From a virus, in IMG/VR virus record IMGVR_UViG_3300008266_000033, positions 1 through 64,000 of that record: 64,000 nt of DNA; one strand, given 5' to 3'. Shown piece by piece: positions 10,061 through 52,479 of the stretch. The translations under genes were made by a program, and so were the position numbers. The notes under the pieces were generated by a model. That model was not told where the DNA came from. It saw nothing but the letters and a program-made list of their open reading frames with translations, and ran no database searches. Every line of letters begins with the position of its first letter. Position 1 is the stretch's first letter.

Positions 10061-10260
10061 ATATGTATATACCTTTTCCCTATAAACTATATAGGTCTAG
10101 CTCTTAGAGTTGCGGGAAAGCCTATAGTTGGCAAAATCCCTATAGTGGAAATTGAGAGTGATTTTTTGGATGTGTGTGGTGTGTGTATGTGTGGTGAGGA
10201 ATGTATATACGTATATATGTATATACCTTTTTTTATAGACTATATAGGTATTAACTCTGA
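10061..10260 (-). repeat. Imperfect 46-bp direct repeat in a 465-bp gene-free region
   Basis: Between 9999 and 10463 I see no credible gene. Two copies of an imperfect repeat lie at 10061-10106 and 10215-10260, each with ATATGTATATACCTTTT followed by an ACTATATAGGT block. Copy 1 contains a small hairpin, CCTATA-TAGTT-TATAGG on the minus strand. Between 10203 and 10226 is an alternating TATAC/GTATA tract. Further CATATA/TATACG palindromes run to 10380. A regulatory or origin-like role is possible but unproven. Confidence 0.5.
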
Positions 10261-10403
10261 TAAGATATTGCCTTTCTTTATACGCCATATATGGGCGCAT
10301 ATGGACATTAACGCACGTGGGAGGTACCACCACCATACGCCATATATACGCCGTATATACCGCATATATATGCATGCCATAACACAAACATAGGCTGCCG
10401 TGC

Positions 10404-10449
10404 AGTAGAAATCCCGTACCTATAATAAAATATAGTACGGGACTCTACT
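10404..10449 (-). other. Long hairpin downstream of the RadA-like gene
   Basis: GTAGAGTCCCGTAC and GTACGGGATTTCTAC on the minus strand pair around a 15-base AT loop, with one mismatched or bulged region. It begins 15 bases after the stop of the RadA-like gene. No U-run follows, so it may be an RNA-stabilising or processing hairpin rather than a standard terminator. Confidence 0.6.
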
Positions 10450-10463
10450 AACACACAACTATT

Positions 10464-11306
10464 TTAATTTTCGTTCCTATTTGAGACCACCATATGTGCG
10501 AACTCAGTATAATTAATAAGGTTATTTGATAATACGAATCCCATTTTCTCACCTACTACTCCACGACGGTTTTTACTAAACTCCATGTATCGGTATCCTG
10601 ATTCTTTATCGAATCGCATGTGCATCATTCCTGTTGTCATGTGTTTCAATCGGTTTGAACCTACGAAATCACCGCCTTTGGTTACTTGCTGGATGATTAA
10701 AAAACATGTATATGATTGGTGGGTGTTATTGCCGTTGTTATGAGCCTCTAGTAAGTGTAGCATCCACTGTTCAGCACGACCGGCATTCCACTTATGGTAA
10801 TCTTTTACTGATTCGGTTACTTCGGCCCAACTATCAATTAATACTAAATCATAACCTGGTTCAAGAGCCTTTTCAATTACGGTTTTAGGATCATACTCAG
10901 CATAGTCACCCATAAACACTGTATCTACGAATGCAAATTGAGGGTAACGTTTACAGTAACCAACCATATCAATACGGTTCATTTCACCTGATATAAATAA
11001 TACTCGTTTACCGGCAGTCTTTTTAGCACGGCATAGAAAATCTAATAATACTGTTGATTTACCTACTCCAGGATCACCTACAGCAATTAAGTTAGTTGCA
11101 GGCATAAAACCTCCGTCGGCAGATATAAACTTATCAATTAATGGGTGGCCTGTTCTAACCGGTATAAAGATATTATCATCAAATTCAATATCATTTAAAC
11201 GAACAGGCTCAATAACTAAATTAGCATGTGTTGAGGCTGCTTTTGAGGCTGATGATGGACGTCCTCTTTTTTTCATTTCTACGTGTGGGAATGGTTGTGT
11301 GTTCAT
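10464..11306 (-). CDS. RadA/RecA-type ATPase
   Basis: This 280-residue P-loop ATPase has Walker A GDPGVGKST near residue 77, an FISGEM strand typical of RadA/DnaB-like proteins, and Walker B DLVLIDSW near 150. A QQVTKGGDFVGSNRLKHMTT block is followed by KNRRG near 243, close to the KNRFG motif of RadA. The zinc finger and Lon-like domain of bacterial RadA are absent. A role in recombination or replication, perhaps in place of UvsX, is likely. It has a -33/-7 promoter with three upstream GTCATAT boxes and a downstream hairpin, so it appears to be a single-gene transcription unit. Helicase-like KaiC relatives are an alternative. Confidence 0.8.
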   Translation of the reverse strand: MNTQPFPHVEMKKRGRPSSASKAASTHANLVIEPVRLNDIEFDDNIFIPVRTGHPLIDKFISADGGFMPATNLIAVGDPGVGKSTVLLDFLCRAKKTAGKRVLFISGEMNRIDMVGYCKRYPQFAFVDTVFMGDYAEYDPKTVIEKALEPGYDLVLIDSWAEVTESVKDYHKWNAGRAEQWMLHLLEAHNNGNNTHQSYTCFLIIQQVTKGGDFVGSNRLKHMTTGMMHMRFDKESGYRYMEFSKNRRGVVGEKMGFVLSNNLINYTEFAHMVVSNRNEN

Positions 11307-11417: not shown

Positions 11418-11455
11418 AAAAAAATAGGGTAGGCGTTTTATATTACCTACCCTAT
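11418..11455 (-). terminator. Rho-independent terminator of the ncRNA
   Basis: A perfect 10-bp stem ATAGGGTAGG/CCTACCCTAT (11455-11446 with 11433-11424) encloses a 12-base AT loop and is followed by a run of Ts on the minus strand. It closes the transcript that starts near 11666. Confidence 0.85.
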
Positions 11456-11666
11456 CAAAAAACACACACACTTTCTAATTTAATAGGTAATGGGGGGGAA
11501 CCGGCCTCCCCCCCGTACCTGGTTTAAGTCCGGCTTACTATCTCTAGTTACCGGCTCTGCGCGTGGTGGACGGGTACACCTTATAATCCCGTCTTAATGG
11601 ACCCGATGGTCCTATATACCCCCCTATTTAACTAAATCCCCTATATAATTTCGGGGGGCGTTTTAT
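11418..11666 (-). ncRNA. Candidate structured non-coding RNA, about 250 nt
   Basis: A strong promoter at 11673-11703 and a strong terminator at 11418-11455 bracket about 250 bases with no credible reading frame and a clearly higher GC content than the genome. Stems visible in the minus-strand transcript include GGACC-ATCG-GGTCC (near 11607), GACGGG/CCCGTC (near 11582), a long AGGTA(C)GGGGGGG/CCCCCCC(AT)TACCT hairpin (11484-11522) and C-run/G-run pairing near the 5' end. It does not show the signatures I know for tmRNA, RNase P, 6S or group I introns. Large ornate phage RNAs such as GOLLD and ROOL are often found near tRNA genes as this one is, but they are longer. Function unknown. Confidence 0.7.
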
Positions 11667-11672
11667 ATAATA

Positions 11673-11703
11673 TAAATATAATAAAAATTTTTTTCTAATC
11701 CAA
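11673..11703 (-). promoter_or_regulatory. Promoter of the candidate ncRNA
   Basis: On the minus strand TTGG starts at 11703, and with a 20-bp spacer after TTG the -7 element TATATTTA follows at 11680-11673. This is one of the best matches to the window's promoter consensus. The predicted start is near 11666. Confidence 0.75.
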
Positions 11704-11724
11704 CCTTAATATAAAGAACTTTTG

Positions 11725-11809
11725 TACTCGGGACGGGAATCGAACCCGTACAATCTCAATGATCACAGGATTTTAAGTCCTGCGTGTCTACCAGTTCCAC
11801 CACCCGAGC
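11725..11809 (-). tRNA. tRNA-Leu (anticodon TAA)
   Basis: An 85-nt cloverleaf starts GCTCGGG and ends CCCGAGT plus discriminator A. The anticodon arm is CAGGA-CTTAAAA-TCCTG, giving anticodon TAA. A long variable arm typical of tRNA-Leu follows, and the T arm contains GGTTCGATTCC. CCA is not encoded. It reads UUA, the expected common Leu codon in an AT-rich phage. It has its own promoter immediately upstream. Confidence 0.95.
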
Positions 11810-12180: not shown

Positions 12181-12408
12181 TTATAAACATGAAACATGAA
12201 TTGAATTAACATTCTTATAGAATGATACTACTGAGCCACCTGGAGATATTAAATCCCACGTGTGAGTTTTTTCCTTAATCTGAGGGCTAAATACCCCAAA
12301 ATAATGTCCGTCGATGGAGATACTGTATAACATATTTCCAGGCGATTCAACACTATCAGTTACTCTAATTTTGTAACGATCGATAATTTCTTTTGGTAGT
12401 TCAGTCAT
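12181..12408 (-). CDS. Hypothetical 75-residue protein
   Basis: A small soluble protein with strand-like segments (GHYFGVFSP, GGSVVSFYKN) and no recognised motif. It is the first gene after a -33/-7 promoter with two phased GTCATAT boxes, an arrangement shared with the RadA-like gene. That suggests regulated, probably early expression. Confidence 0.6.
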   Translation of the reverse strand: MTELPKEIIDRYKIRVTDSVESPGNMLYSISIDGHYFGVFSPQIKEKTHTWDLISPGGSVVSFYKNVNSIHVSCL

Positions 12409-12430
12409 GTGTGTGCGTTTTAATTTGCCG

Positions 12431-12461
12431 TAAATATACGAACGGCAATCCTTAAATCCAA
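12431..12461 (-). promoter_or_regulatory. Bacteroidota-type promoter
   Basis: TTGG with the TTG at 12461-12459, a 20-bp spacer ending TTCG, and TATATTTA at 12438-12431 lie 22 bases before the start codon at 12408. The spacer also resembles the one at 11347-11377 (GGATTT followed by A-rich sequence). Confidence 0.8.
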
Positions 12462-12468
12462 CCTTTTA

Positions 12469-12486
12469 ATATGACTTTTATATGAC
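12469..12486 (-). promoter_or_regulatory. Two GTCATAT boxes with 11-bp period
   Basis: GTCATAT on the minus strand at 12486-12480 and 12475-12469. The repeat period and the distance to the -7 element (30-31 bp) match the set at 11384-11412, which supports a shared DNA-binding regulator. Confidence 0.6.
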
Positions 12487-12489
12487 GTT

Positions 12490-12806
12490 GATTTTGCGCG
12501 CGCTATGTCTCTTTCGTATATACTTTCGCGTAGGGTGAGAAGGGTTGGCGAGCGGGGAAAAAGGGTTGAATACCCCTTGACCCTACCACACACACCCTCA
12601 CACAGTTTTTCATATATACATATATACGTATATACATATATACTTTGACCCATTTTGCTTTCCACATACACCAACGGTTTATACACGGGTTTAATTTTCT
12701 ATAAACGCGTTAAAGTTATTGGCAGCGCGAGTGGTGAAATGTGAATTTAAATTTATATAACCCAGCATATGGTGGTGTAACACGGGTTCAACACGGGTTT
12801 AACATG
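12490..12806 (-). other. Gene-free region with TA tract and iteron-like repeats
   Basis: No credible gene is seen in about 320 bases. It holds a GCGCGCGC run near 12497 and a 33-base alternating CATATA/TATACG tract at 12611-12643 like that at 10203-10226. Three copies of an 11-bp repeat ACACGGGTTNA follow at 12683-12693, 12780-12790 and 12791-12801, the last two in tandem. Iteron-like repeats beside an easily melted tract are seen at some replication origins. That reading is only a suggestion here. Confidence 0.45.
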
Positions 12807-16153: not shown

Positions 16154-16339
16154 TTATCTTAATAAGGTTACTGTTCCGTTTTGTGTTTTATATTTCATAT
16201 TAATATCTCTATATTCAACTTGATAATAATATACACCATCAGGTGCTAAATTTCCCTGATATGTTCCATCCCATGCTTGGTTTAGTTGATTAGATTGAAA
16301 TATAAGTATTCCTGTTCTAGTATATACAACAAATCTTAA
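16154..16339 (-). pseudogene. Detached remnant of a T9SS type-B sorting domain
   Basis: In a different frame from the preceding gene, 61 codons encode the second half of a CHU_C/gliding-motility C-terminal domain. It runs from RFVVYTRTGILIF through WDGTYQGNLAPDGVYYYQVEY to NGTVTLLR and a stop. The usual first half (xxPNAFTPNxDGxND) is missing, so a deletion together with a frame change has separated this tail from the protein at 16336-18573. It has no start codon or ribosome-binding context of its own. An assembly error could give the same picture. Confidence 0.7.
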
Positions 16340-18573
16340 TCAATTCCCATAGTGTAAGTTGCTTCAGTAATTAATTCAACACAGTATCTTCCTGGTTGTA
16401 GATACCTATGAGTTGGTTCATAATCTGTAGATATTTCTGAATCATCAAAATTCCAATAATAATTATCTCCATCCTCAGATAAATTTATAAATTCAAATAC
16501 TGGGGATAATATGTCTATGGGATTAGATTGATTTGAATTAAATGCGGCTGATGGTGTTTTATTTATTAAAATATGGTTAGGTTTAACTAATGAATCAACA
16601 CATCCTTTATCAGTAATAGCTATTAGCCTTGCTGTAAATTGACCAGGTGAATCATAACATCGTTTAGTCTCTTCTCCAGTTTGAATTATACCAGGTTCTA
16701 AATTCCATTCATAAGTGTATAATGGATTAGGATCAATTACAAAAAAATTAATACAAGCAGGATGGCATTCACTGGTACTACTTTCGTCAAATAAAGCAGA
16801 TGGTAATGGGTTTACCACTACATTCAAAGTATGAGTTTGTTGGCATCCATTTGCATCAGTTAAAGTAGCAGTATACATTCCATCTGAGGGAGGATATACT
16901 ATTGAACCATTAACATCTTGATTAATATTATAGGTATTAGTCCAAACTATATTGTAAGGAGCAATTGCACTTTGTTGTGCCACTAACAGCTCTAACGGTT
17001 TACCAAAACATAATACCTCGTTATTATCTCCAGTTAATGTTATATTAAGAGGCTGATTTACATTTAAATCAAACATCTTAACACAACCATTATTATCAGT
17101 TACAATTAATTGATAGTATCCTGCACTCACATTAAATAAATCAGGGTTATTTATTAATGGGGCTGTGTTCCAAGAATAATCATATGGAGGAGTACCACCT
17201 AAAATATTAGCTGATATAGTTCCATCTGAGTATCCAAAGCAAGTTGGTTGAACTGAAACGAAAGTATTTTGAATATCTTGTAGTGGGCCTGTAATAGTTG
17301 CAATATTATCTAATATACATCCATTATCATCAATAATAGTAAGAGCATAATTATCTATAGCTAAATTATTAAATATTCCAGTAAGATTAGATAATGTATT
17401 GCAATGATATATGTAAGGGGGGGTTCCTCCAATTCCCTCTATTTGAATTTGACCATTATTTGCATTATAACAGTCTACATTTGTAACAGTTAATTGATTA
17501 TATTCTAATGGAGGTGGTTCTGTTATATTTACTCCAATGTTAGTAGTACATCCATTATCATCAGTTACTATTACATTATGTGCTCCAGCTGGTAAATTAT
17601 TAAATATTCCAGTTAAATTGATTACACCATTTAGGTTGTAGGTATAAGGTAAAGCACCATTAATTGAGTTAATAGTGAAGCTACCATTATTTTCTCCAAA
17701 GCATACATTGTCTTGTTGAGTTGTAATATTATTTACTACAGTTGTATTTTCTCCAACTACAACATTGATAGGATTTCCAACACATCCTTCATCATCCTCT
17801 ACTGTTACCACATAATTCCCAGCACCAATATTAGTTACTGGTATAGCAGAAGCAATTCCATTGACTGTATAGATGTAAGGTGCAGTACCTCCTACTGTTG
17901 TAATTGCAAAAGATCCATCATTAAATCCGCTACACGAGGCATCAATTATATTATTTGAACTAATAACAGGCAGCACATTACATCCTGTAACTGTACTTCC
18001 AGGTGATAATTCAGCAGGGTAAAGACCATTACATCCATTAGTACCCCAACTACCTGCAAATCCATCACTAACTGGAGATACTTGTATTGATAGTGAGTTA
18101 CCAACTGTAGGTCCTACTACTATAGTAAAGCATAAAGTCCAAGGTCCAGTTCCAAAGTCTCCCCAATCATCTGTAGTTTGGCCGTTAGTGTTTAAGTCAA
18201 AAAAGAAACCAGGCCCAAATTGATTTCCACCTCCACCTGAGGAAGCAGGATTACCATTAAATGTTCCTGGTATCCATAACCATTGGCCTCCTGATCCATT
18301 TCCTCCATTATTTGCTGGGTATGTTGTAGGAGTTAATGTTGTTAAATCCCAACCAGGTCCTAAATTAAGATCAAATCCTTCTAGCCAATTGGTACCTATT
18401 CCAGTATTCCAATTGTTATAGGTTATACAAAATTGGACTGTTGTTCCAGGAGCGTACCCCCCATTAACAGGGGCAGGATTAACATTGAAATTTTCTGTGC
18501 CCATGCAATCGTTTTGAGCACTTAAAACTAATGAGATTAATATTAACCCTATTAAAAGAAATAACCTTTTCAT
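16336..18573 (-). CDS. SprB-like secreted adhesin, C-terminus interrupted
   Basis: The 745-residue precursor has a signal peptide (MKRLFLLIGLILISLVLSAQ) and a Gly/Asn-rich N-terminal domain to about 200. Five SprB-type repeats follow (about 205-590), each with CFGxxDG, GGTxPYxYxxN and TDxxGC. Two PKD-like domains follow, the second with YYWNFDD and RYLQPGRYCVEL. SprB is the gliding adhesin of flavobacteria and such proteins leave the cell by T9SS. The frame stops at TYTMGID just where the sorting domain should begin, and a domain remnant follows in another frame. Without that domain the product might stay in the periplasm. The role in infection is unknown; host-surface alteration is inferred. 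Confidence 0.85.
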   Translation of the reverse strand: MKRLFLLIGLILISLVLSAQNDCMGTENFNVNPAPVNGGYAPGTTVQFCITYNNWNTGIGTNWLEGFDLNLGPGWDLTTLTPTTYPANNGGNGSGGQWLWIPGTFNGNPASSGGGGNQFGPGFFFDLNTNGQTTDDWGDFGTGPWTLCFTIVVGPTVGNSLSIQVSPVSDGFAGSWGTNGCNGLYPAELSPGSTVTGCNVLPVISSNNIIDASCSGFNDGSFAITTVGGTAPYIYTVNGIASAIPVTNIGAGNYVVTVEDDEGCVGNPINVVVGENTTVVNNITTQQDNVCFGENNGSFTINSINGALPYTYNLNGVINLTGIFNNLPAGAHNVIVTDDNGCTTNIGVNITEPPPLEYNQLTVTNVDCYNANNGQIQIEGIGGTPPYIYHCNTLSNLTGIFNNLAIDNYALTIIDDNGCILDNIATITGPLQDIQNTFVSVQPTCFGYSDGTISANILGGTPPYDYSWNTAPLINNPDLFNVSAGYYQLIVTDNNGCVKMFDLNVNQPLNITLTGDNNEVLCFGKPLELLVAQQSAIAPYNIVWTNTYNINQDVNGSIVYPPSDGMYTATLTDANGCQQTHTLNVVVNPLPSALFDESSTSECHPACINFFVIDPNPLYTYEWNLEPGIIQTGEETKRCYDSPGQFTARLIAITDKGCVDSLVKPNHILINKTPSAAFNSNQSNPIDILSPVFEFINLSEDGDNYYWNFDDSEISTDYEPTHRYLQPGRYCVELITEATYTMGID

Positions 18574-52448: not shown

Positions 52449-52479
52449 TAAAGATACGAAAGGCCTCTTGCGAGGCCAA
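52449..52479 (-). promoter_or_regulatory. Promoter overlapping a hairpin
   Basis: TTTGG with TTG at 52479-52477, 20 bp and TATCTTTA at 52456-52449. The spacer is the hairpin listed next, an unusual overlap of terminator and promoter. Confidence 0.7.
52462..52477 (-). terminator. Hairpin after the endolysin gene
   Basis: A 6-bp GC-rich stem GGCCTC/GAGGCC with a four-base loop and TTT after it on the minus strand, 27 bases after the endolysin stop. A weak terminator or a supercoil-sensitive promoter spacer. Confidence 0.6.

Follow-up and report, generated by a model that had tools for sequence, protein, structure and literature searches.

A candidate gene for a structured non-coding RNA beside tRNA-Leu in a large phage

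Results

The minus-strand segment between the tRNA-Leu(UAA) and a KaiC/DnaB-like ATPase gene probably constitutes an independent phage gene whose product would be a structured non-coding RNA of about 245 nt. The best reading of the sequence is that this RNA would be of the same broad kind as the T4 RNAs C and D, GOLLD and ROOL, being a member of none of them. The segment shows a promoter motif, an intrinsic terminator, absence of ORFs and a strand-specific fold. A structured RNA gene had already been proposed here by a sequence-only reading, and the agreement of the promoter with the phage's own motif, the strand specificity of the fold, the lack of an ORF and the orientation of the terminator bear that proposal out.

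Locus and gene order

The window (the whole stretch of 64,000 nt that was analysed) is the first part of a 128,411-bp virus record, the size of a large phage. The presence of a B-family DNA polymerase, a tail sheath, a portal and a terminase would indicate a contractile-tailed phage, and a protein with SprB and PKD repeats at 16336-18573 of the window, together with the promoter type, suggests a Bacteroidetes host. The 156 non-overlapping ORFs in the set used here are all on the minus strand, like the RNA unit, which runs from about 11668 to 11418. Read 5' to 3' on this strand, the order is ORF 12167-11835, tRNA-Leu(UAA), RNA promoter, RNA, terminator, ATPase promoter and ATPase (Table 1). The ORF-free unit that had been described as bracketed by a promoter and a terminator beside tRNA-Leu has all of its elements on one strand. 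Also, the intergenic stretches at 12400-12700 and 10100-10460 of the window are rich in TATATATG, CA and GT runs and contain further hairpins, their folds being among the most stable of the record.

Table 1. Features of the RNA locus, in window coordinates.
Feature	Position	Strand	Details
tRNA-Leu promoter	~11847-11817	-	promoter motif of the phage
tRNA-Leu(UAA)	11724..11809	-	upstream neighbour of the RNA; ARAGORN, Rfam
RNA promoter	11672..11703	-	-33 box TTGGATT 11703-11697, -7 box TATATTTAT 11680-11672
Structured non-coding RNA body (candidate)	11457..11668	-	start near 11665 +/- 5; fold, no ORF, GC
5' hairpin GCCCCCC/GGGGGGU, long AU-rich loop	11618..11659	-	pair probability 0.99; weak alone, z -1.3
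Hairpin GGACC-AUCG-GGUCC	11599..11612	-	pair probability 1.00
Hairpin GACGGG/CCCGUC	11569..11593	-	pair probability 1.00
Core domain, closing helix CACGCGC/GUGUGUG around two hairpins	11465..11565	-	z -5.41 (plus strand, -1.96)
Intrinsic terminator	11423..11456	-	12-bp stem, then T7; z -6.1 against shuffles
ATPase's own promoter	~11377-11346	-	promoter-motif scoring
KaiC/DnaB-like ATPase	10464..11306	-	downstream neighbour; PHROG 19 E 1.3e-9, Pfam KaiC E 5e-8

Promoter and terminator

A generic sigma-70 scan returned the RNA promoter among 12 matches, fewer than in shuffled sequence, because the phage uses a Bacteroidetes-type promoter, and the phage's own motif was used instead. This motif was built from ten other sites and reads TTGGatt, then TTCGTATMTTTAC, with 22-24 nt between the start of the first box and TATM in the ten defining sites; its -7 box resembles the flavobacterial TAnnTTTG -7 box (PMC9723704). 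The RNA promoter, left out of the scoring matrix (which was trained on the ten other promoters), comes 9th among 33,814 scored sites when only the core motif counts, with eight sites scoring better, and 15th when the TTCG extension is included, with 14 sites ahead of it. Its spacing from box start to box start is 23 nt, the modal value of the motif, and it is a variant without the TTCG extension seen in the best promoters of the phage. The earlier description as a "strong -33/-7 promoter" is therefore right in motif and spacing and overstated in strength, and high expression, which had been suggested from that strength and from the place beside a tRNA, is not supported by a mid-ranking variant. 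Moreover, among the 18 motif sites examined, an ORF starts 12-123 nt downstream in all but two, those of the tRNA-Leu and of the RNA, and a site at the RNA with no ORF downstream is good evidence for a non-coding transcription unit. A separate observation concerns the promoters at window position 52456 and record position 109829, which carry an identical hairpin, GGCCTCGCAAGAGGCC, between their -33 and -7 boxes, probably a terminator overlapping the promoter.

At the other end of the unit, the terminator has the perfect 10-bp stem that had been reported (arms 11424-11433/11446-11455), or 12 bp counting the flanking pairs, and a run of seven T comes after it, on the minus strand only. The stretch between the tRNA-Leu and the RNA unit showed no terminator, so read-through from the tRNA-Leu promoter may add transcript.

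Composition and fold of the RNA

Inside the unit, the transcribed strand has no ORF of at least 20 aa, except for one whose start lies in the terminator region and which extends beyond the unit. The enrichment in G and C noticed previously is confirmed, being 49% for the core 11457-11660 and 29.5% for the window as a whole, and the unit holds the highest-GC 150-nt stretch of the window. Together with its terminator, the unit folds at -98 kcal/mol (z -5.26). In a fold scan of the 128-kb record, with 3408 windows of 150 nt taken from both strands, the two minus-strand windows over the RNA are the first and second by energy; after a composition correction by regression on dinucleotide content, they are the first and sixth.

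The core domain was also scored without the terminator, and its z on the minus strand (Table 1) indicates that the terminator alone does not account for the strong fold. The difference between strands in this domain arises because some G-U pairs, such as those of the closing helix, can form in the minus-strand RNA alone, and this asymmetry is expected of an RNA and not of a DNA palindrome. Within the core, the first hairpin pairs CCGGU with GCCGG around a GAGA loop and the second is formed by AGGUA-GGGGGGGAG and UUCCCCCCC-UACCU. The latter is the 7-bp G/C stem with its AGGTA/TACCT extension singled out among the convincing stems by the sequence-only reading, and it is located at 11520-11485, the GGGGGGG/CCCCCCC part at 11514-11508/11498-11492 and the extension at 11520-11516/11489-11485. 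By eye, the hairpin at 11557-11526 (GAGCCGG..., GAGA loop, 2-nt bulge) is like domain V of group II introns; the group II intron model (domain V/VI, RF00029) gave no match at E <= 10. Also, the 9-mer GGACTTAAA at 11524-11532 of the window is common to the RNA and the anticodon arm of the adjacent tRNA-Leu (11724-11809), possibly by chance.

Search for known families and relatives

At the gathering score, Rfam finds two tRNAs only in the whole window, in agreement with the remark that the RNA fits none known. With Rfam 15 at E <= 10, the RNA unit has chance matches only; the best non-tRNA match is L20_leader (E 0.8; 17.3 bits, the cut-off being 58.7), which falls mainly on the terminator. Neither the GOLLD nor the ROOL model matches the RNA at E <= 10.

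A search with blastn of 50,697 phage records gave nothing above chance for the RNA, its exact pattern has no match in IMG/VR, and two bacterial genome scans found nothing. A hairpin pattern gave 16 matches in IMG/VR, none of which fits the model past a 32-nt local hairpin, and they were judged chance. The covariance model of the RNA, built from a single sequence, recovers itself at 190 bits and has no other match in 150 phage records encoding relatives of three proteins of this phage, the match in L117 (E 8) being a terminator. The covariance search that had been proposed as a check was carried out on both sides, with no family found in Rfam and no second copy among the 150 records. Since a single-sequence model finds only fairly close relatives, the absence of homologues is weak evidence.

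Relatives reached through the DNA polymerase, the thymidylate synthase and the ATPase alignment comprise many loci, none with the RNA; the ATPase alignment alone covers 80 loci with identity up to 55%. Single-query searches with the ATPase, the 110-aa neighbour and the 500-aa ORF found no relatives. By DNA polymerase, the nearest phages are G002 (92%, 14 kb) and G005 (68%, 99 kb), plus short near-identical fragments. G005, the closest long phage record, is collinear over about 35-111 kb of the virus record, ending before the RNA locus. In L056, whose ATPase is about 40% identical, a tRNA-Leu(UAA) lies nearby, and the segment after the tRNA holds a small ORF and has a weak fold. In the collections searched, no relative spanning the RNA locus was found, and the RNA is known from one contig only.

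Other non-coding segments were seen in these records. L112 has a GC-rich non-coding segment of 350 nt between tRNA-Ile and tRNA-Lys (1696-2046) with a good fold (z -3.5) and no Rfam match, unrelated in sequence to the RNA of the window. GC-rich non-coding stretches with no Rfam match lie directly 3' of the homologous ATPase in L111 (3910-4306), L140 (3886-4140) and L163 (3889-4437). Also, there is a tmRNA gene at 4995-5432 of L098, a 181-kb phage contig with an ATPase 55% identical to that of the window.

Discussion

From the features described above, we infer that the RNA would be transcribed, stable and active in trans. A host-type RNA polymerase would initiate on the minus strand near 11665, at the phage promoter, and transcription would end at the intrinsic terminator at 11424, with extra transcript possibly arriving by read-through from the tRNA-Leu promoter. 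The product would then fold into three 5' hairpins, a closed core of two hairpins and the terminator stem, and it may act in trans through binding to a protein or to the translation machinery, as supposed for other phage RNAs adjacent to tRNAs.

Although a trans role of another type could be considered, in which the RNA is an antisense regulator whose GUGUGUGUGUUUU tract near the 3' end pairs with CACACAC in the neighbouring mRNA leaders, blocking or stabilising them, this appears unlikely. One CACACAC tract (12414) closely precedes the start codon of ORF 12181-12408 and the other (11329) is in the ATPase leader; outside called ORFs, the coding strand of the 128-kb record has no others. Also, the GU tract is weakly paired in the predicted fold (p 0.70), and other phage RNAs with complementarity to gene leaders are known (PMC7567579). 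However, CA, GT and TA runs abound in the neighbourhood, and hairpins at the 3' end of the ATPase, here and in L056, also follow a GT tract like this one, so the CACACAC match may be incidental and is given low weight. Moreover, such pairing leaves the large structured body unexplained.

The RNA unit immediately precedes the ATPase, shares its strand and ends in a terminator, an arrangement that would also suit a cis-acting leader of the ATPase mRNA, that is, a 5' UTR whose terminator acts as an attenuator allowing read-through. Nonetheless, the ATPase has its own promoter downstream of the terminator, among the best motif matches of the genome, no riboswitch family of Rfam matches, and the predicted fold contains no competing anti-terminator helix; a leader is accordingly quite improbable.

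A DNA-level element, such as an origin or a packaging or recombination site, is very unlikely. GC-rich inverted repeats in an AT-rich genome could merely resemble RNA stems, but an element of this type should fold about equally on both strands, whereas the core has a z of -5.41 on one and -1.96 on the other, and the promoter and the terminator flank the unit in the same orientation. Finally, there is next to no chance of an HDV-like theta ribozyme trimming the 3' end of the tRNA-Leu: these ribozymes of gut phages sit directly after phage tRNAs, within 5 nt of their ends and often at tRNA-Leu (PMC10879173), but here the distance to the tRNA is too large, the sequence 3' of it is AT-rich and unfolded, and the nested double-pseudoknot descriptor, which that fold should satisfy, has no match, giving no more hits than shuffles when one mismatch is allowed.

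A free-standing RNA gene therefore remains the preferred reading, and the question is what it resembles. Non-coding, structured and beside a phage tRNA, the unit belongs to a loose kind of tRNA-adjacent phage ncRNA, and its likeness to GOLLD, ROOL and the T4 RNAs C and D would be in placement at most. The stable RNAs C and D of T4 (species 1 and 2) are likewise small and come from a large tailed phage, in which they are encoded next to the tRNA genes, but they are cut from a tRNA precursor, whereas the present RNA has its own promoter, and no sequence similarity to them was found in a phage collection that includes T4-like phages. GOLLD and ROOL are structured RNAs of phages and prophages, often near tRNA islands, and the expression of GOLLD rises in lysis (PMC12286853). 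Like the present RNA, they are structured and found near tRNAs; however, they have defined consensus folds and about 600-800 nt or more, and membership fails both by covariance model and by length (at least about 600 nt versus about 245 nt). In ICP1, an abundant orphan ncRNA of about 800 nt was seen in RNA-seq, with no function assigned (PMC7567579). It is also a non-coding phage transcript, differing in its length and in that ICP1 has no tRNA, whereas the RNA described here is known from its sequence alone.

In summary, the locus is a real and well-delimited candidate RNA gene of no known family, and the class in which it falls, that of orphan phage RNAs beside tRNAs, is a recognised one. Conceivably, though this is rather doubtful, it represents a class of small, tightly folded phage RNAs not described before, expressed from a separate transcription unit while Bacteroidetes are being infected and targeting host or phage machinery by a novel mechanism. 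RNAs beside phage tRNAs can be very abundant, and a function is known for almost none. A compact RNA of 245 nt with clear ends would be easier to test than the 600-800 nt of GOLLD or ROOL, and the promoter motif obtained in this analysis would be usable for this phage group.
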